Part shown: piece after piece, positions 50,853 through 56,207 of the stretch | Layout: each line of letters opens with the position of its first letter | How positions within the stretch are numbered: the first letter of the stretch is position 1 | Assembly (NCBI GenBank): GCA_031254115.1 | Contig: JAIRUZ010000032.1 | Location: forward strand, 1 to 64,000 | DNA from: Streptococcaceae bacterium | GTDB lineage: Bacteria; Bacillota; Bacilli; Lactobacillales; Streptococcaceae | Direction: 5' to 3' | Length of the DNA: 64,000 nucleotides | Program-made: the position numbers and the translations under genes | The notes under the pieces: model-generated | Databases searched by the model: none | Seen by the model: the letters and a program-made list of their open reading frames with translations, nothing else | Told to the model about the DNA's origin: nothing

Positions 50853-51494
50853 TTATTGGCCTATATGAAAAACAAAATCACATTGCTCAACAACTTCGGG
50901 ATCATGCGTGACGACAATAACCGTTTTCCCCAGATTAGCATCGCCTCTAAGCAACTTCATTATTTCGTTTCTATTTGTCTTATCAACCGAACCCGTAGGC
51001 TCGTCAGCCAGCAGCAAATCACTGCTTTTGAGTAATGACCGCGCCACAGCAACCCGCTGCTTTTCACCTCCTGAGAGAGAATAAATGCGCGTCGACAGTG
51101 AATGCGCTACATTGACTTTTTCTAAAACTTCCTTCATCTTTTTGCGCTTCTCGGCGCGACTTAACTTGCTATAAAGCATCGCCACATTTAAATTTTTTTC
51201 AATCGTCTCATCTTCAAACAAGGCAAAATTTTGGAATAAATAAGAAATTTTTTCACGACGAAGCAACAAAGCACCCTTGCTATTCGCCTTTGGAATCTTC
51301 TTCCCAAATAATTTTATTTCGCCCGCATCAAAATCTTCAAGCATCCCAATAATATTAAGAAAAGTCGTTTTTCCAGAGCCACTATTTCCCTGAATGGCGA
51401 CCATCGTCCCCGAGTCAATCGTCACATTCACACCTTCAAACAAAAGCCGCTTTTTGAAACTCTTTTTAAGATTTTTTATTTCAAGTAATTTCAT
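50853..51494 (-). CDS. ABC transporter ATPase (bacteriocin export, lactococcin-972-group-like)
   Basis: GNSGSGKTTFLNIIGMLEDFD; LSGGEKQRVAVARSLL; LLADEPTGSVD. Confidence 0.85.
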   Translation of the reverse strand: MKLLEIKNLKKSFKKRLLFEGVNVTIDSGTMVAIQGNSGSGKTTFLNIIGMLEDFDAGEIKLFGKKIPKANSKGALLLRREKISYLFQNFALFEDETIEKNLNVAMLYSKLSRAEKRKKMKEVLEKVNVAHSLSTRIYSLSGGEKQRVAVARSLLKSSDLLLADEPTGSVDKTNRNEIMKLLRGDANLGKTVIVVTHDPEVVEQCDFVFHIGQ

Positions 51495-53572
51495 TATTCT
51501 CCTTTCAAAACACTCACCAACATCTGCTTTTCAAGCTTCCTTATCAAACTCAATAAGATGAACAGCTCAAACACAAAATAAATAATAAATAGCTCAACAA
51601 TGAGTGGATTGAAGCCCGTCAGAATCGAATAACTAAAGTATAAAATGTACTGAGCAACAATAGCCCCCATCAAGAGACCATGCGTTTTAATCCACGAAGC
51701 GCCATTCAGACGTTTAATCGCAATGTTTTTTCTATACGTGTTAAAATAAGCAGCAATTGTAGCCACAATCATCGCCAAGAACAAGATGAATGCAAACAAA
51801 TTCATGAATACCCATTCCCACAGGTCACCAATCAAGAAAAGAGCATTTGTTTTCGCAATCTCTGACGTTGAAACAAATGAGATTTCAGAGCCTGCATTTG
51901 CATCAGCCTCGAGAGCTGGTAGTAAGCTTTTATACGTCTTACTTAACGAGTGATCAATCAAAGGATAGAGCATGTCCACAGGGCTGTCGCCATGATAGAC
52001 CTCTTCACCAAAGACACCTGACGCGTTTTGCGCAGTATAAACTTCAACGACTTCTGGCGACATGTAGGCAAGATTCGCATTCGTGAGCTCGGTTGCATTG
52101 CTCGCTGTAAAATAGGCCACTTTTTGGTCCGACTTTATCCAATAAAACTTCAATTGCGCCGTCTTAAACCCATTGACTGAATCAGCATCTTTTAACGCAG
52201 CGATGTATTGTGACTCGATTTGCTCTTTTTTTGATTTTAAGTTTTCGTTTAATAAAATAACACCTTCAGTTTCATTGTTACTTACCCTGATTTGTTTGCC
52301 CGTATCGTCAATAACCGCAAATTTATCTAAATAATTGGCATTGACTTGTAAACAAGTCAAATTTGAAAATTGTCCCGAGAGCGGTGCTTGCGATGGCGCT
52401 GCGGTAATCGCCCCATGCGTATTCGCGTAATAAAGGGAGTTTTCCATGCGATACGTATTAGTTAGATTTATTGAATAACCCGTTACAGCTTCATATAACA
52501 CCCCATAATTAGCGAGTTTAGAGTTTGATAAAGAACCCATTCCCGTATTCAAAATTAAGACAATTCCCATCGCAGTCGCAACACTTGCCGCAAAGATATA
52601 AACCTTGACGCCATAAATGACCCGTTGAAACTTTTTTAAAAAGGGTTTATTATTGATATGATTGGCGATAGAGTGCCCGCTCATTGCCCCGACTGGCACA
52701 CACGATACAAGCGCTATTCCAAGAAAACCAAGGAGGCTCCAAAACGTAAACTCCAAACTCAATCCATGGGTAATCACAAAACTTGAAATGAGGTAAACAC
52801 TGAAAAATATAATCGAAAACTCTTTCATGAATAGTTGGCTCACTATTTTTAAATCACTTGCTCCATTTAGCTTGTAAATGGCGACCTTTGAGTGGTTCGA
52901 CGCGAGCCAAATAAACAAGAAGACGAGAAAAAAGACGACTGAAATTTTGATAAAGAAAATGTATAAATCGTTTGTTCTCCCATTTACTGGAATTTCCCAA
53001 TACCAGTCGGGCTGCTTTGTCAGGCTTTGTGGTGTTGTGTGCATTGAAAACTTTGCATTTATCTTCTGCGAAAGAAGGGAAAGAACTTGATCTTTATTCC
53101 CATTATTTTCAAAGAAAATAGAGGCTCCCTGATATTCTTCGTTGGTTATCTCTGAGAGTGGCTTTACCGCAAAAGTTGACTTTTGTCCGTGATCCCAGTA
53201 AGTATCAAAGTTTTCATTTTTATAGTGCGTTTCAAAAAATGTCGTGACCGAGATGGGAGCCAACCAATTCACATTGCCATTCCCGTCGTTTTCCCTACCC
53301 ACATAATAACTCCGTATTATAAAAGGTGTGTCTGTTGTTTTTGACACACCTTCGATAATGCTGACTAGCGTCTCCTTATCTACCAAGGTGCTAGTTGTAA
53401 CGGAATGACTGATATTATATGCGGGCTGGTAGATTTGAACAGAAGACCAAGGCAACGCGTAATTTTTTTCAATCGCACGTAATTGATCATCGTTGTAAGC
53501 CATGTTAGCAAGCATAAACATAATAATGCTTAGCAAGAAATACATGATAACTTTCATCAACCTGTTAATCAT
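51494..53572 (-). CDS. Bacteriocin-associated integral membrane protein (DUF1430-like)
   Basis: 692 aa; TM arrangement and MINRLMKVIMYFLLSIIMFMLANMAYNDDQLRAIEKNYALPWSSVQIYQP; coupled to the ATPase. Confidence 0.75.
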   Translation of the reverse strand: MINRLMKVIMYFLLSIIMFMLANMAYNDDQLRAIEKNYALPWSSVQIYQPAYNISHSVTTSTLVDKETLVSIIEGVSKTTDTPFIIRSYYVGRENDGNGNVNWLAPISVTTFFETHYKNENFDTYWDHGQKSTFAVKPLSEITNEEYQGASIFFENNGNKDQVLSLLSQKINAKFSMHTTPQSLTKQPDWYWEIPVNGRTNDLYIFFIKISVVFFLVFLFIWLASNHSKVAIYKLNGASDLKIVSQLFMKEFSIIFFSVYLISSFVITHGLSLEFTFWSLLGFLGIALVSCVPVGAMSGHSIANHINNKPFLKKFQRVIYGVKVYIFAASVATAMGIVLILNTGMGSLSNSKLANYGVLYEAVTGYSINLTNTYRMENSLYYANTHGAITAAPSQAPLSGQFSNLTCLQVNANYLDKFAVIDDTGKQIRVSNNETEGVILLNENLKSKKEQIESQYIAALKDADSVNGFKTAQLKFYWIKSDQKVAYFTASNATELTNANLAYMSPEVVEVYTAQNASGVFGEEVYHGDSPVDMLYPLIDHSLSKTYKSLLPALEADANAGSEISFVSTSEIAKTNALFLIGDLWEWVFMNLFAFILFLAMIVATIAAYFNTYRKNIAIKRLNGASWIKTHGLLMGAIVAQYILYFSYSILTGFNPLIVELFIIYFVFELFILLSLIRKLEKQMLVSVLKGE

Positions 53573-53701: not shown

Positions 53702-54841
53702 TTATTTTTCCATTTTATATGCTAGTGTATAGCGACAACCAAATAGAACAAAAGTAGATAGAGCAAGAACAATTATGCCATTCGATACACTCACAGAAAA
53801 ATTGTTTATTGAATTTGCTAGCTCTCCTGTTGCAGTAGAAACCCCCATCAAATAAGTTGTCGGAAGAAATTCTGCTAGCCTTTGTATAGGCACAATTACG
53901 CGGGTTCCAAACATCATTCCCATAATGAAAAGAACACTTACAAAGAGTGACGCTAGCCTATCTCTTAGGATGTACGTGATTAGAGAAGAAAAAGTACACA
54001 AAAATAAAAGAGAAAACATTTGTAACACCAAACTCGGGCCAATGATATTGGATAGATTTTGAAAGTTCATTTGATGAGTTTCTAGATTGTAAGTAAGAAT
54101 TGGATATCTCCAACTTCCCATTCCATTCAAAGATGAAGATAGCAAAAAACTATAAAGGGTCATCACCATCAATAGAATAATGGAAACACAAAACGAAGTT
54201 GAAAGCGTGGAAAGAAGATTTTTCGATAAACTTCCTGGTAGCAATATATCTCTATTAATTCTACCTGTATAAGGCTCCGAGAAAAAAGAAACCATAATCA
54301 AAATAATACCCAGAACAAAAACGATGGGGAAAATATACTGTATCATCGACAGTGTAAACGTTGTCCCAGAAGTAGGGGTTTGAATCTCCTGATAGTTCAC
54401 TCCCCTCTCTTCAAGAGCCTGATACATGAGGATATCGTGATGAATTGCCTTCATTTCATCAACCGACGCATTTTCCCCTAAGGAATTTTCTAACTCCTTA
54501 TTTTTCTCAAGTAGCAAAGGATAAGCAGCTACCCAGTTCTTGTTGTCCATTGCTGTCAGTACGTCTTCATCATTCTTTAACCAGCGTTCATTTTCTAGAA
54601 GAGCAGCCGTGTTTTCTTTTAAATTTTTACCCGTTTGTCCCTTGAGGTTCTCCTTCTGTTGAGAAACGATACTTTTCAGATTAGTCGTATCTGCTTTGAT
54701 AAAGGCTTTTAACCCTGCATTATCGGCTGCAGCTGCATTCATAAACAAAAAAATTGTAATAATTAGCAACAAAATAACAAATGGAATATAATTAAACGGA
54801 TTTTTAATGATTGTTTTTATTTGAAAATTAATTCTATTCAT
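53702..54841 (-). CDS. ABC-2-type transporter permease
   Basis: 379 aa; N-terminal TM, large extracytoplasmic loop, about 6 TM; coupled to the downstream-listed ATPase. Confidence 0.75.
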   Translation of the reverse strand: MNRINFQIKTIIKNPFNYIPFVILLLIITIFLFMNAAAADNAGLKAFIKADTTNLKSIVSQQKENLKGQTGKNLKENTAALLENERWLKNDEDVLTAMDNKNWVAAYPLLLEKNKELENSLGENASVDEMKAIHHDILMYQALEERGVNYQEIQTPTSGTTFTLSMIQYIFPIVFVLGIILIMVSFFSEPYTGRINRDILLPGSLSKNLLSTLSTSFCVSIILLMVMTLYSFLLSSSLNGMGSWRYPILTYNLETHQMNFQNLSNIIGPSLVLQMFSLLFLCTFSSLITYILRDRLASLFVSVLFIMGMMFGTRVIVPIQRLAEFLPTTYLMGVSTATGELANSINNFSVSVSNGIIVLALSTFVLFGCRYTLAYKMEK

Positions 54842-55452
54842 AAATCTGAAACCAACATTTTTCTATTATCAAGTGTGATAAGAGCATTGCAAATCGGAAG
54901 AATATCTTCCTTGTAGTGTGAGGACATAATAATTATTTTATTTCTTTGAGTATACTCTTTCATAGAAACAAATAATTTTTCACGACTTTCCTCATCAAGT
55001 CCGTTCGTTATTTCGTCCATTAAAAGGACATCTGCTTCACTAATCAAATACATTGAAATAATCAGTCGCTGTTTCATTCCCAAAGAGTATTTCTTTATGG
55101 GAAGATTTATATAATCTCCCATATTCCAATAGGAAATATAGTCCTCAAAAGATTGTTTTGATTGCCATTCACTTTTAATCAGCTTTAAATAGTCCAAACC
55201 TGTTACATTCTTATTCAGCCAAGTTGTATCTTCAAAATAAAAAAAGTTATTTTTTTGACTTCTCAACGGTTTTGAATCCAAAAAAATCCCACCTTTTTTG
55301 TTTATCAAACCCATTACAGCTCGAAAAAATGTTGTTTTTCCAGATCCGTTTGTGGCAATCATTCCATATATTTTCCCTTTTTCAAAAGAATAGGAAAAAT
55401 CATCAAGTATTGGCTCGCGAGTTCTGATTGATAAGTTCTTAATCTCTAACAT
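54838..55452 (-). CDS. ABC transporter ATPase
   Basis: GMIATNGSGKTTFFRAVMGL; YSLGMKQRLIISMYLI; VLLMDEITNGLDEES. Confidence 0.88.
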   Translation of the reverse strand: MLEIKNLSIRTREPILDDFSYSFEKGKIYGMIATNGSGKTTFFRAVMGLINKKGGIFLDSKPLRSQKNNFFYFEDTTWLNKNVTGLDYLKLIKSEWQSKQSFEDYISYWNMGDYINLPIKKYSLGMKQRLIISMYLISEADVLLMDEITNGLDEESREKLFVSMKEYTQRNKIIIMSSHYKEDILPICNALITLDNRKMLVSDL

Positions 55453-55498
55453 TTAATACTCTCCAAAAAGGGCAAGAATAGTATTCTCGCCCTCACTT

Positions 55499-55737
55499 TT
55501 AAACGTGGTAGTAATGACCAACATAATAGTAAACATATTTCTCTGAATATCGTGTATAGTTCCAGCCCCAAGCTGCAACTTCTGGAGACATCAGATAACT
55601 AAACCTTGCATTGTTGTTCACGTTAAAATAACATCCCCTGTAAATCTATTAACGCTGTAATAATACTTCCCCGCAACTGTTTTAGCAGATGCATTTGTTG
55701 TTGCTAATGCGCCCGAAGCAAACTTTTTAAAATTCAT
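55499..55737 (-). pseudogene. Degraded secreted-peptide/bacteriocin-like gene (frameshifted, signal-peptide core missing)
   Basis: AGAAAGGATTAAAC-ATG: MNFKKFASGALATTNASAKTVAGKYYYSVNRFTGDVILT*; other frame continues ...YRGCYFNVNNNARFSYLMSPEVAAWGWNYTRYSEKYVYYYVGHYYHV*. Confidence 0.6.
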
Positions 55738-55814
55738 GTTTAATCCTTTCTTTTTGCATTTTATATCCCACATAACAACCGTTTTTGCGCTATGAAGGTA
55801 TCAAAAAAGAAGCA

Positions 55815-55943
55815 ATGAAGACAAGAACCGAGCAGTTCAAGTCGCAATCGCTTGAAACAATCTGCTCGTGCGCCCAACTAGTATATGCGCTTCTTGCTTC
55901 TTGCTTCTTGCTTCTTGCCATCAGTATAGCGCTTTCATTTTGA
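55815..55943 (+). CDS. Candidate 42-aa hydrophobic small ORF embedded in a strong RNA hairpin
   Basis: MKTRTEQFKSQSLETICSCAQLVYALLASCFLLLAISIALSF*; overlaps the stop of an upstream 8-aa ORF MKVSKKKQ (55792-55818). Confidence 0.4.
   Translation: MKTRTEQFKSQSLETICSCAQLVYALLASCFLLLAISIALSF
55889..55916. repeat. 4x tandem heptamer GCTTCTT
   Basis: Direct reading: gcttcttgcttcttgcttcttgcttctt. Confidence 0.95.
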
Positions 55944-56002
55944 TTTGTCAAGCAAAAGATTCATTTTATCAATTTTTTCATCATTTAAGTTTTGAATGAA
56001 AA

Positions 56003-56207
56003 AACGCCTAAAATAGGCGTTAGGCTGTAATTTTATGAAATTTCACAATAGATAAACTCATTTTATTTATAAGTGAAGCGTAGAAAATTTAAAGAAAAAG
56101 CCGGTGCGAGTAGGAAATTCGCTTGCGGCCAGCACGGCTTTTCTTTAAATTTTTGTAGTGAAACAGACTTTGTCTTCACTCTGACGCCTAAAATATAAAA
56201 TAGGCGT
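56003..56207. repeat. Nested inverted-repeat element (two AACGCCTA/TAGGCGTT-type hairpins flanking a long AT/GC stem)
   Basis: AACGCCTA-aaa-TAGGCGTT (56003-56021); AAAATTTAAAGAAAAAGCCG...CGGCTTTTCTTTAAATTTT (56084-56153); ACGCCTA-N10-TAGGCGT (56184-56207). Confidence 0.8.

Follow-up and report, generated by a model that had tools for sequence, protein, structure and literature searches.

The plus-strand reading frame and its hairpin

The locus raises the question of whether a hydrophobic small reading frame, the start of which can pair with its own heptamer repeats, is a gene or whether the hairpin belongs to another element. In the window, meaning the whole stretch of 64,000 nucleotides analysed, the elements described by the initial annotation are all present: a 42-codon plus-strand frame (ATG 55815, stop 55941-55943), an 8-codon ATG frame at 55792 that overlaps it, a GCTTCTT tandem repeat (4.3 units, 55889-55918), complementary arms that join the start region to the repeats (55793-55815 and 55901-55923), and an inner stem at 55829-55868. 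Folding prediction, which had been proposed as a check, found the hairpin far more stable than shuffled sequences, with the plus-strand region folding at -58.1 kcal/mol (z -5.3) and none of 200 shuffles equalling it. The minus strand folds about equally well (-58.4 kcal/mol, z -4.5), so that folding of the window copy alone does not decide the strand.

55815 to 55943, plus strand: 42-amino-acid reading frame of the initial annotation, judged spurious; antisense to the leader described below and to its promoter

In all, six further copies of the structure were identified: two in the same genome, two in a metagenome-assembled genome (MAG) of the same genus, one in Lactococcus nasutitermitis and one in another Lactococcus. 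DNA searches of the genome itself and 99 relatives gave the first of these, and by pattern search two of the copies map to contigs of Streptococcaceae bacterium Glo450_bin24, a MAG, and another to L. nasutitermitis. Across 337 Streptococcaceae genomes, a covariance model returned exactly the copies from the DNA searches and, in addition, one diverged copy (G104, E 9.7e-6); a second model that included the latter gave no more copies in its genus. No convincing match was obtained in 398 Lactobacillales genomes, two weak matches (E 0.03-0.04) lacking the P2/P3 core described below and being taken as chance, as was a match on contig C9 of genome G003. Plasmids and phages held no copy by blastn; on viral contigs, one pattern match, at a phage lysozyme-like gene, was attributed to chance, and a second pattern gave zero matches.

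These copies bear directly on the proposal that the frame encodes a toxin-like or pheromone-like peptide, or a leader peptide, with its start sequestered by its own repeats. The window does contain the frame, with a start region that can pair with the repeats, but the frame is destroyed in all six other copies: from the equivalent ATG, five of them read for only 5, 14, 13, 13 and 13 codons, the ATG motif is missing from the seventh leader copy, and the 42-codon frame is open in the window only. The initial annotation would have given up its reading had the frame been destroyed in relatives where the hairpin is not conserved; in the relatives found the frame is lost but the hairpin is kept, with covariation. 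A protein family profile search gave no match for the 42-residue product, a promoter scan found no plus-strand promoter nearby, and the frame reads across a minus-strand promoter. Its hydrophobic stretch is an automatic outcome of the repeat, as 21 bp of a 7-bp unit encode, whichever frame is read, one and the same cycle of codons without a stop (A S C F L L L). A plus-strand small protein is thus rejected on conservation; judged from sequence comparison, the 42-residue protein is almost certainly not real, and the peptide reading is left with next to no probability. The case illustrates how a hydrophobic small frame can arise antisense to a repeat-containing regulatory RNA. The further suggestion that the region is simply a structured RNA was right as to structure, whereas the RNA lies on the minus strand.

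A minus-strand promoter and a three-way-junction leader

On the minus strand, a promoter matching the consensus at 11 of 12 positions stops six bases short of the heptamer array, and the hairpin can therefore be read as the 5' leader of the operon that follows. TTGACA with 17-bp spacing precedes six of the seven leader copies, although the promoter sequences differ; the L. nasutitermitis copy has no clear -35 box and no perfect heptamers. Five of the seven copies have their first heptamer 7 bases past the -10 box, which is the usual position of a start site. The features of the window leader, in order of predicted transcription, are as follows.

55923 to 55951, minus strand: promoter TTGACA-17-TATACT (promoter scan)
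about 55916, minus strand: predicted transcription start, from the position of the first heptamer relative to the -10 box
55889 to 55916, minus strand: four AAGAAGC heptamers, a tandem repeat forming the 5' arm of stem P1
55870 to 55890, minus strand: hairpin P2, with CUAG in its loop; four of seven pairs changed on both sides across copies
55829 to 55868, minus strand: hairpin P3 (CGAGCAG...CTGCTCG), with an AUUGU bulge and a near-invariant upper stem
55807 to 55828, minus strand: 3' arm of stem P1 (GTTCTTGTCTTCATTGCTTCTT), pairing with the heptamers
55803 to 55808, minus strand: terminator-like U-tract at the foot of P1, present in all copies

The common layout runs from the promoter through a few bases to AAGAAGC-type units, P2 with its CUAG loop and the bulged P3, then through a near-constant strand GUUCUUGUCUUCAU-GCUUCUU into the U-tract, a further hairpin P4, a Shine-Dalgarno hairpin and a secreted-peptide gene. 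The leader is accordingly a predicted three-way junction closed by P1, the 5' arm of which consists of the AAGAAGC repeats and the 3' arm of which runs into the U-tract. A stem followed by a U-tract stands between promoter and gene in seven of seven copies, with the tract interrupted once in G030 and also able to pair in P4. The 3' arm of P1 is near-identical in six copies, with 98.5% of its cells paired. The lower stem of P3 shows changes on both sides in five of its six pairs, P4 is conserved, with double changes in three of its pairs, and the Shine-Dalgarno sequence lies within a short hairpin in five copies but not in G104.

Several other promoter features were observed. The sequence TGACAGCGCTTTCA, which we take to resemble a catabolite (CcpA) operator, overlaps the -35 box in both leader promoters of the same-genus MAG (L031, L032), and a partial version, TGAAAGCGCTATAC, occurs in the window promoter. 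At L029:3526-3640 (genome G000, contig C44) lies a second promoter, 93% identical to that of the window, without the P2/P3 core; downstream of it, a simple hairpin of terminator-like form immediately precedes the ribosome-binding site of an ABC ATPase gene.

Covariation and the strand of the RNA

Standard pairs fill 95.3% of the pair cells in the seven distinct sequences. Changes on both sides were counted in 23 cells, against 7.8±2.0 in shuffles, and in 12 pairs, against 5.8±1.4; these counts come from only seven sequences, six of which built the first model, with the alignment fitted to that model and with shuffles that ignore relatedness, and they consequently lean towards structure. Sliding the pairing partners destroys the signal, and double changes are directly visible (CGAGCAG/CUGCUCG, CUAGCUAG/CUAGCUAG and ACGGCCG/CGGCCGU). 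RNAalifold alone, run on a plain MAFFT alignment, gave 7 pairs with double changes. As minus-strand RNA the structure contains 30 G-U pairs, against 4 on the reverse strand, where pairing falls to 86%; since the G-U pairs fit the minus strand only, the RNA is assigned to it. The sense folds of the L. nasutitermitis copy (-30.7 versus -16.6 kcal/mol antisense) and of the G104 copy (-36.3 versus -21.0 kcal/mol) are also the more stable. Compensatory pairing thus lies on the strand of the downstream gene, as expected of a cis-acting structured leader RNA. Comparison of the copies shows a conserved three-way-junction RNA, predicted on the minus strand ahead of small secreted-peptide genes. A peptide encoded within the minus-strand leader was also considered and rejected, as no start codon was seen by eye in a conserved frame.

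The downstream operon and the state of the window copy

The genes that follow on the minus strand are listed below.

55618 to 55737, minus strand: broken bacteriocin-precursor-like gene, first frame (ATG 55737), without a hydrophobic signal core
55499 to 55621, minus strand: second frame of the same gene, a frameshifted continuation ending YYYVGHYYHV
54838 to 55452, minus strand: ABC transporter ATPase (PF00005, E 8e-19)
53702 to 54841, minus strand: ABC-2-like permease (PF12698, E 0.0015, below the curated cut-off)
51494 to 53572, minus strand: bacteriocin-associated integral membrane protein (TIGR01654, E 8.7e-49; 166.6 bits, short of the 189.35 cut-off)
50853 to 51494, minus strand: lactococcin-972-type bacteriocin export ATPase (TIGR03608, 268.5 bits, above the 254.85 cut-off)

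From this set, a precursor-like gene, ABC ATPase, permease, TIGR01654-like protein and TIGR03608 ATPase, the operon is identified as lactococcin-972-type. All six other leader copies precede a small secreted-peptide gene, followed in five by exporter genes and in the sixth by the end of the contig. The peptide of the C44 copy passes PF09683 (22.7 versus 22 bits), and the C11 and C44 peptides match TIGR01653 below cut-off. A terminator-like hairpin, GGGCGAGAATACTATTCTTGCCCTTTTT, was observed on the minus strand at 55462-55492, in the gap that separates the broken precursor gene from that of the ABC ATPase.

The window copy has lost most of P4 and has no hairpin at the Shine-Dalgarno sequence, and its precursor-like gene is frameshifted. 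This leader may be a decayed member in a decaying locus, or the frameshift may be an assembly error; the window genome is incomplete (76% complete). It is the intact relatives, rather than the window copy, that should be studied.

Other repeats in the window were noted. Positions 1-106, at the start of contig C47, hold 11.8 perfect copies of a 9-bp unit, CGCCTTGTG, an array that may have been cut or collapsed by assembly. At 56084-56153 there is an inverted repeat of two perfect 15-bp arms, 40 bases apart, parts of which have counterparts at two further sites of the genome (C54 and C5; 80-83% identity).

A model for the leader and its rivals

Taken together, the data favour, with reasonable though incomplete confidence, a model in which the hairpin is the minus-strand 5' leader RNA of the lactococcin-972-type operon and has the role of an attenuator of transcription; it probably serves as a transcription brake in the termite-gut relatives of Lactococcus. 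This model proposes that RNA polymerase starts at the first AAGAAGC unit, that the heptamers pair with GUUCUUGUCUUCAUUGCUUCUU to form P1, enclosing P2 and P3, and that the U-tract at the foot of P1 would then release the transcript, a premature terminator being the simplest reading of a U-tract in that position. If P1 were kept open, by a factor on the conserved P2/P3 junction or by too few heptamers, transcription would run on and, in intact copies, meet P4 and the Shine-Dalgarno hairpin. Such a predicted factor or ligand would most naturally bind the loop of P2 and the upper stem of P3, both near-invariant. We infer from this arrangement that transcription is terminated, that a signal controls it and that repeat number may tune it. 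The leader is a candidate RNA regulator of lactococcin-972-type bacteriocins that experiments can test.

The initial annotation had expected changes in repeat number to alter the hairpin and to shift the frame; the number does differ between loci and species, while a frame shift is irrelevant if the frame is not real. The window and C21 copies have four heptamers, C44 one and G104 16, while C67 has five perfect AGGAAGC units, C11 ten plus an AAGGAGC, and G030 none that is perfect. AAGAAGC in three tandem units was found in three of 337 Streptococcaceae genomes, and all listed places are these leaders. When unit number was varied in folding, P1 gained about 18-23 kcal/mol by three units and little more over the next few, so that numbers below three should matter most. 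Even one heptamer can still pair with GCUUCUU, and the one-heptamer C44 copy folds poorly (z -1.8). It is conceivable, if on balance doubtful, that the leader is a repeat-tuned switch, in which slippage of AAGAAGC at the transcript start alters the closing of P1, weaker below about three units, atop sensing by the P2/P3 junction. If so, a clone could raise or lower bacteriocin output without touching promoter or coding sequence.

An alternate scenario would make the leader mainly a processed or stabilising 5' UTR, with P1 as an RNase III target and P4 guarding the new 5' end, or a means of controlling translation through the Shine-Dalgarno hairpin. The long P1 duplex, the compensatory changes in P4 and the hairpin around the Shine-Dalgarno sequence in five copies would all suit it. 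However, it does not account for the U-tract that lies at the base of P1 in all copies; the window has neither of the downstream hairpins, G104 does without that at the Shine-Dalgarno sequence, and this scenario is considered unlikely. Still less probable is a small RNA gene, the terminated leader of which would act in trans on other messages. In its favour, the strand that ends in the U-tract hardly differs from copy to copy, including copies in which its partner varies, but the element always lies directly ahead of a peptide gene, and none stood on its own in the 337 genomes. A small mobile or amplified (MITE-like) DNA element sitting there by chance would account for several copies in one genome, yet it is very improbable, given the common orientation, fixed promoter distance and downstream peptide gene, the lack of any noticed flanking duplication, the compensatory changes that argue for RNA function, and the absence of copies in unrelated places or orientations in its own genome and the 337 genomes.

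Comparison with known systems

Type I toxin-antitoxin loci need a conserved small hydrophobic frame on the expressed strand, which was not found here; as for the antisense RNA that would have to block such a toxin, the only promoter found drives the strand opposite to the proposed toxin. Known lactococcin 972 operons (PF09683, TIGR01653/TIGR01654/TIGR03608) have downstream genes like those seen here, with TIGR01654 proteins in several leader loci. However, other lactococcin-972-type loci in the same genus have different leaders, and several leader-bearing operons encode peptides without a family match, unlike lactococcin 972. In genome G002 the region ahead of the lactococcin-972-like precursors at L090 and L091 has a leader of another type, common to both loci (AGCAGTTGAAGTCAAGGA...CCTTGCGAATG...), so that operons of one kind may be served by several classes of leader within the genus.

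Like phase-variable simple-sequence-repeat regions, the leader carries a perfect 7-bp tandem repeat, numbering 1 to 16 across copies; unlike them, its repeat lies downstream of the promoter and changes neither reading frame nor promoter spacing. Among open-access papers, nothing relevant was found on lactococcin 972 leaders or repeat-controlled bacteriocins, nor any description of a tandem repeat anchored at a predicted transcription start and serving as a terminator-like arm. The closest likeness is to attenuator leaders of the riboswitch, T-box and ribosomal-protein types, which also place a covarying multi-helix RNA between promoter and first gene and end in a final stem followed by a U-tract. 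In contrast to these, the leaders match nothing in Rfam 15 at the curated score, T-box and known riboswitches included, no alternative antiterminator pairing that would compete with P1 was found in the leader, and a tandem repeat running from the predicted transcription start makes up the 5' arm of the terminator-like stem. The best reading is thus that these bacteriocin operons carry a leader RNA not previously described. In general type it belongs with the known structured, attenuator-like leaders; what is unusual is its terminator arm, built of repeats.
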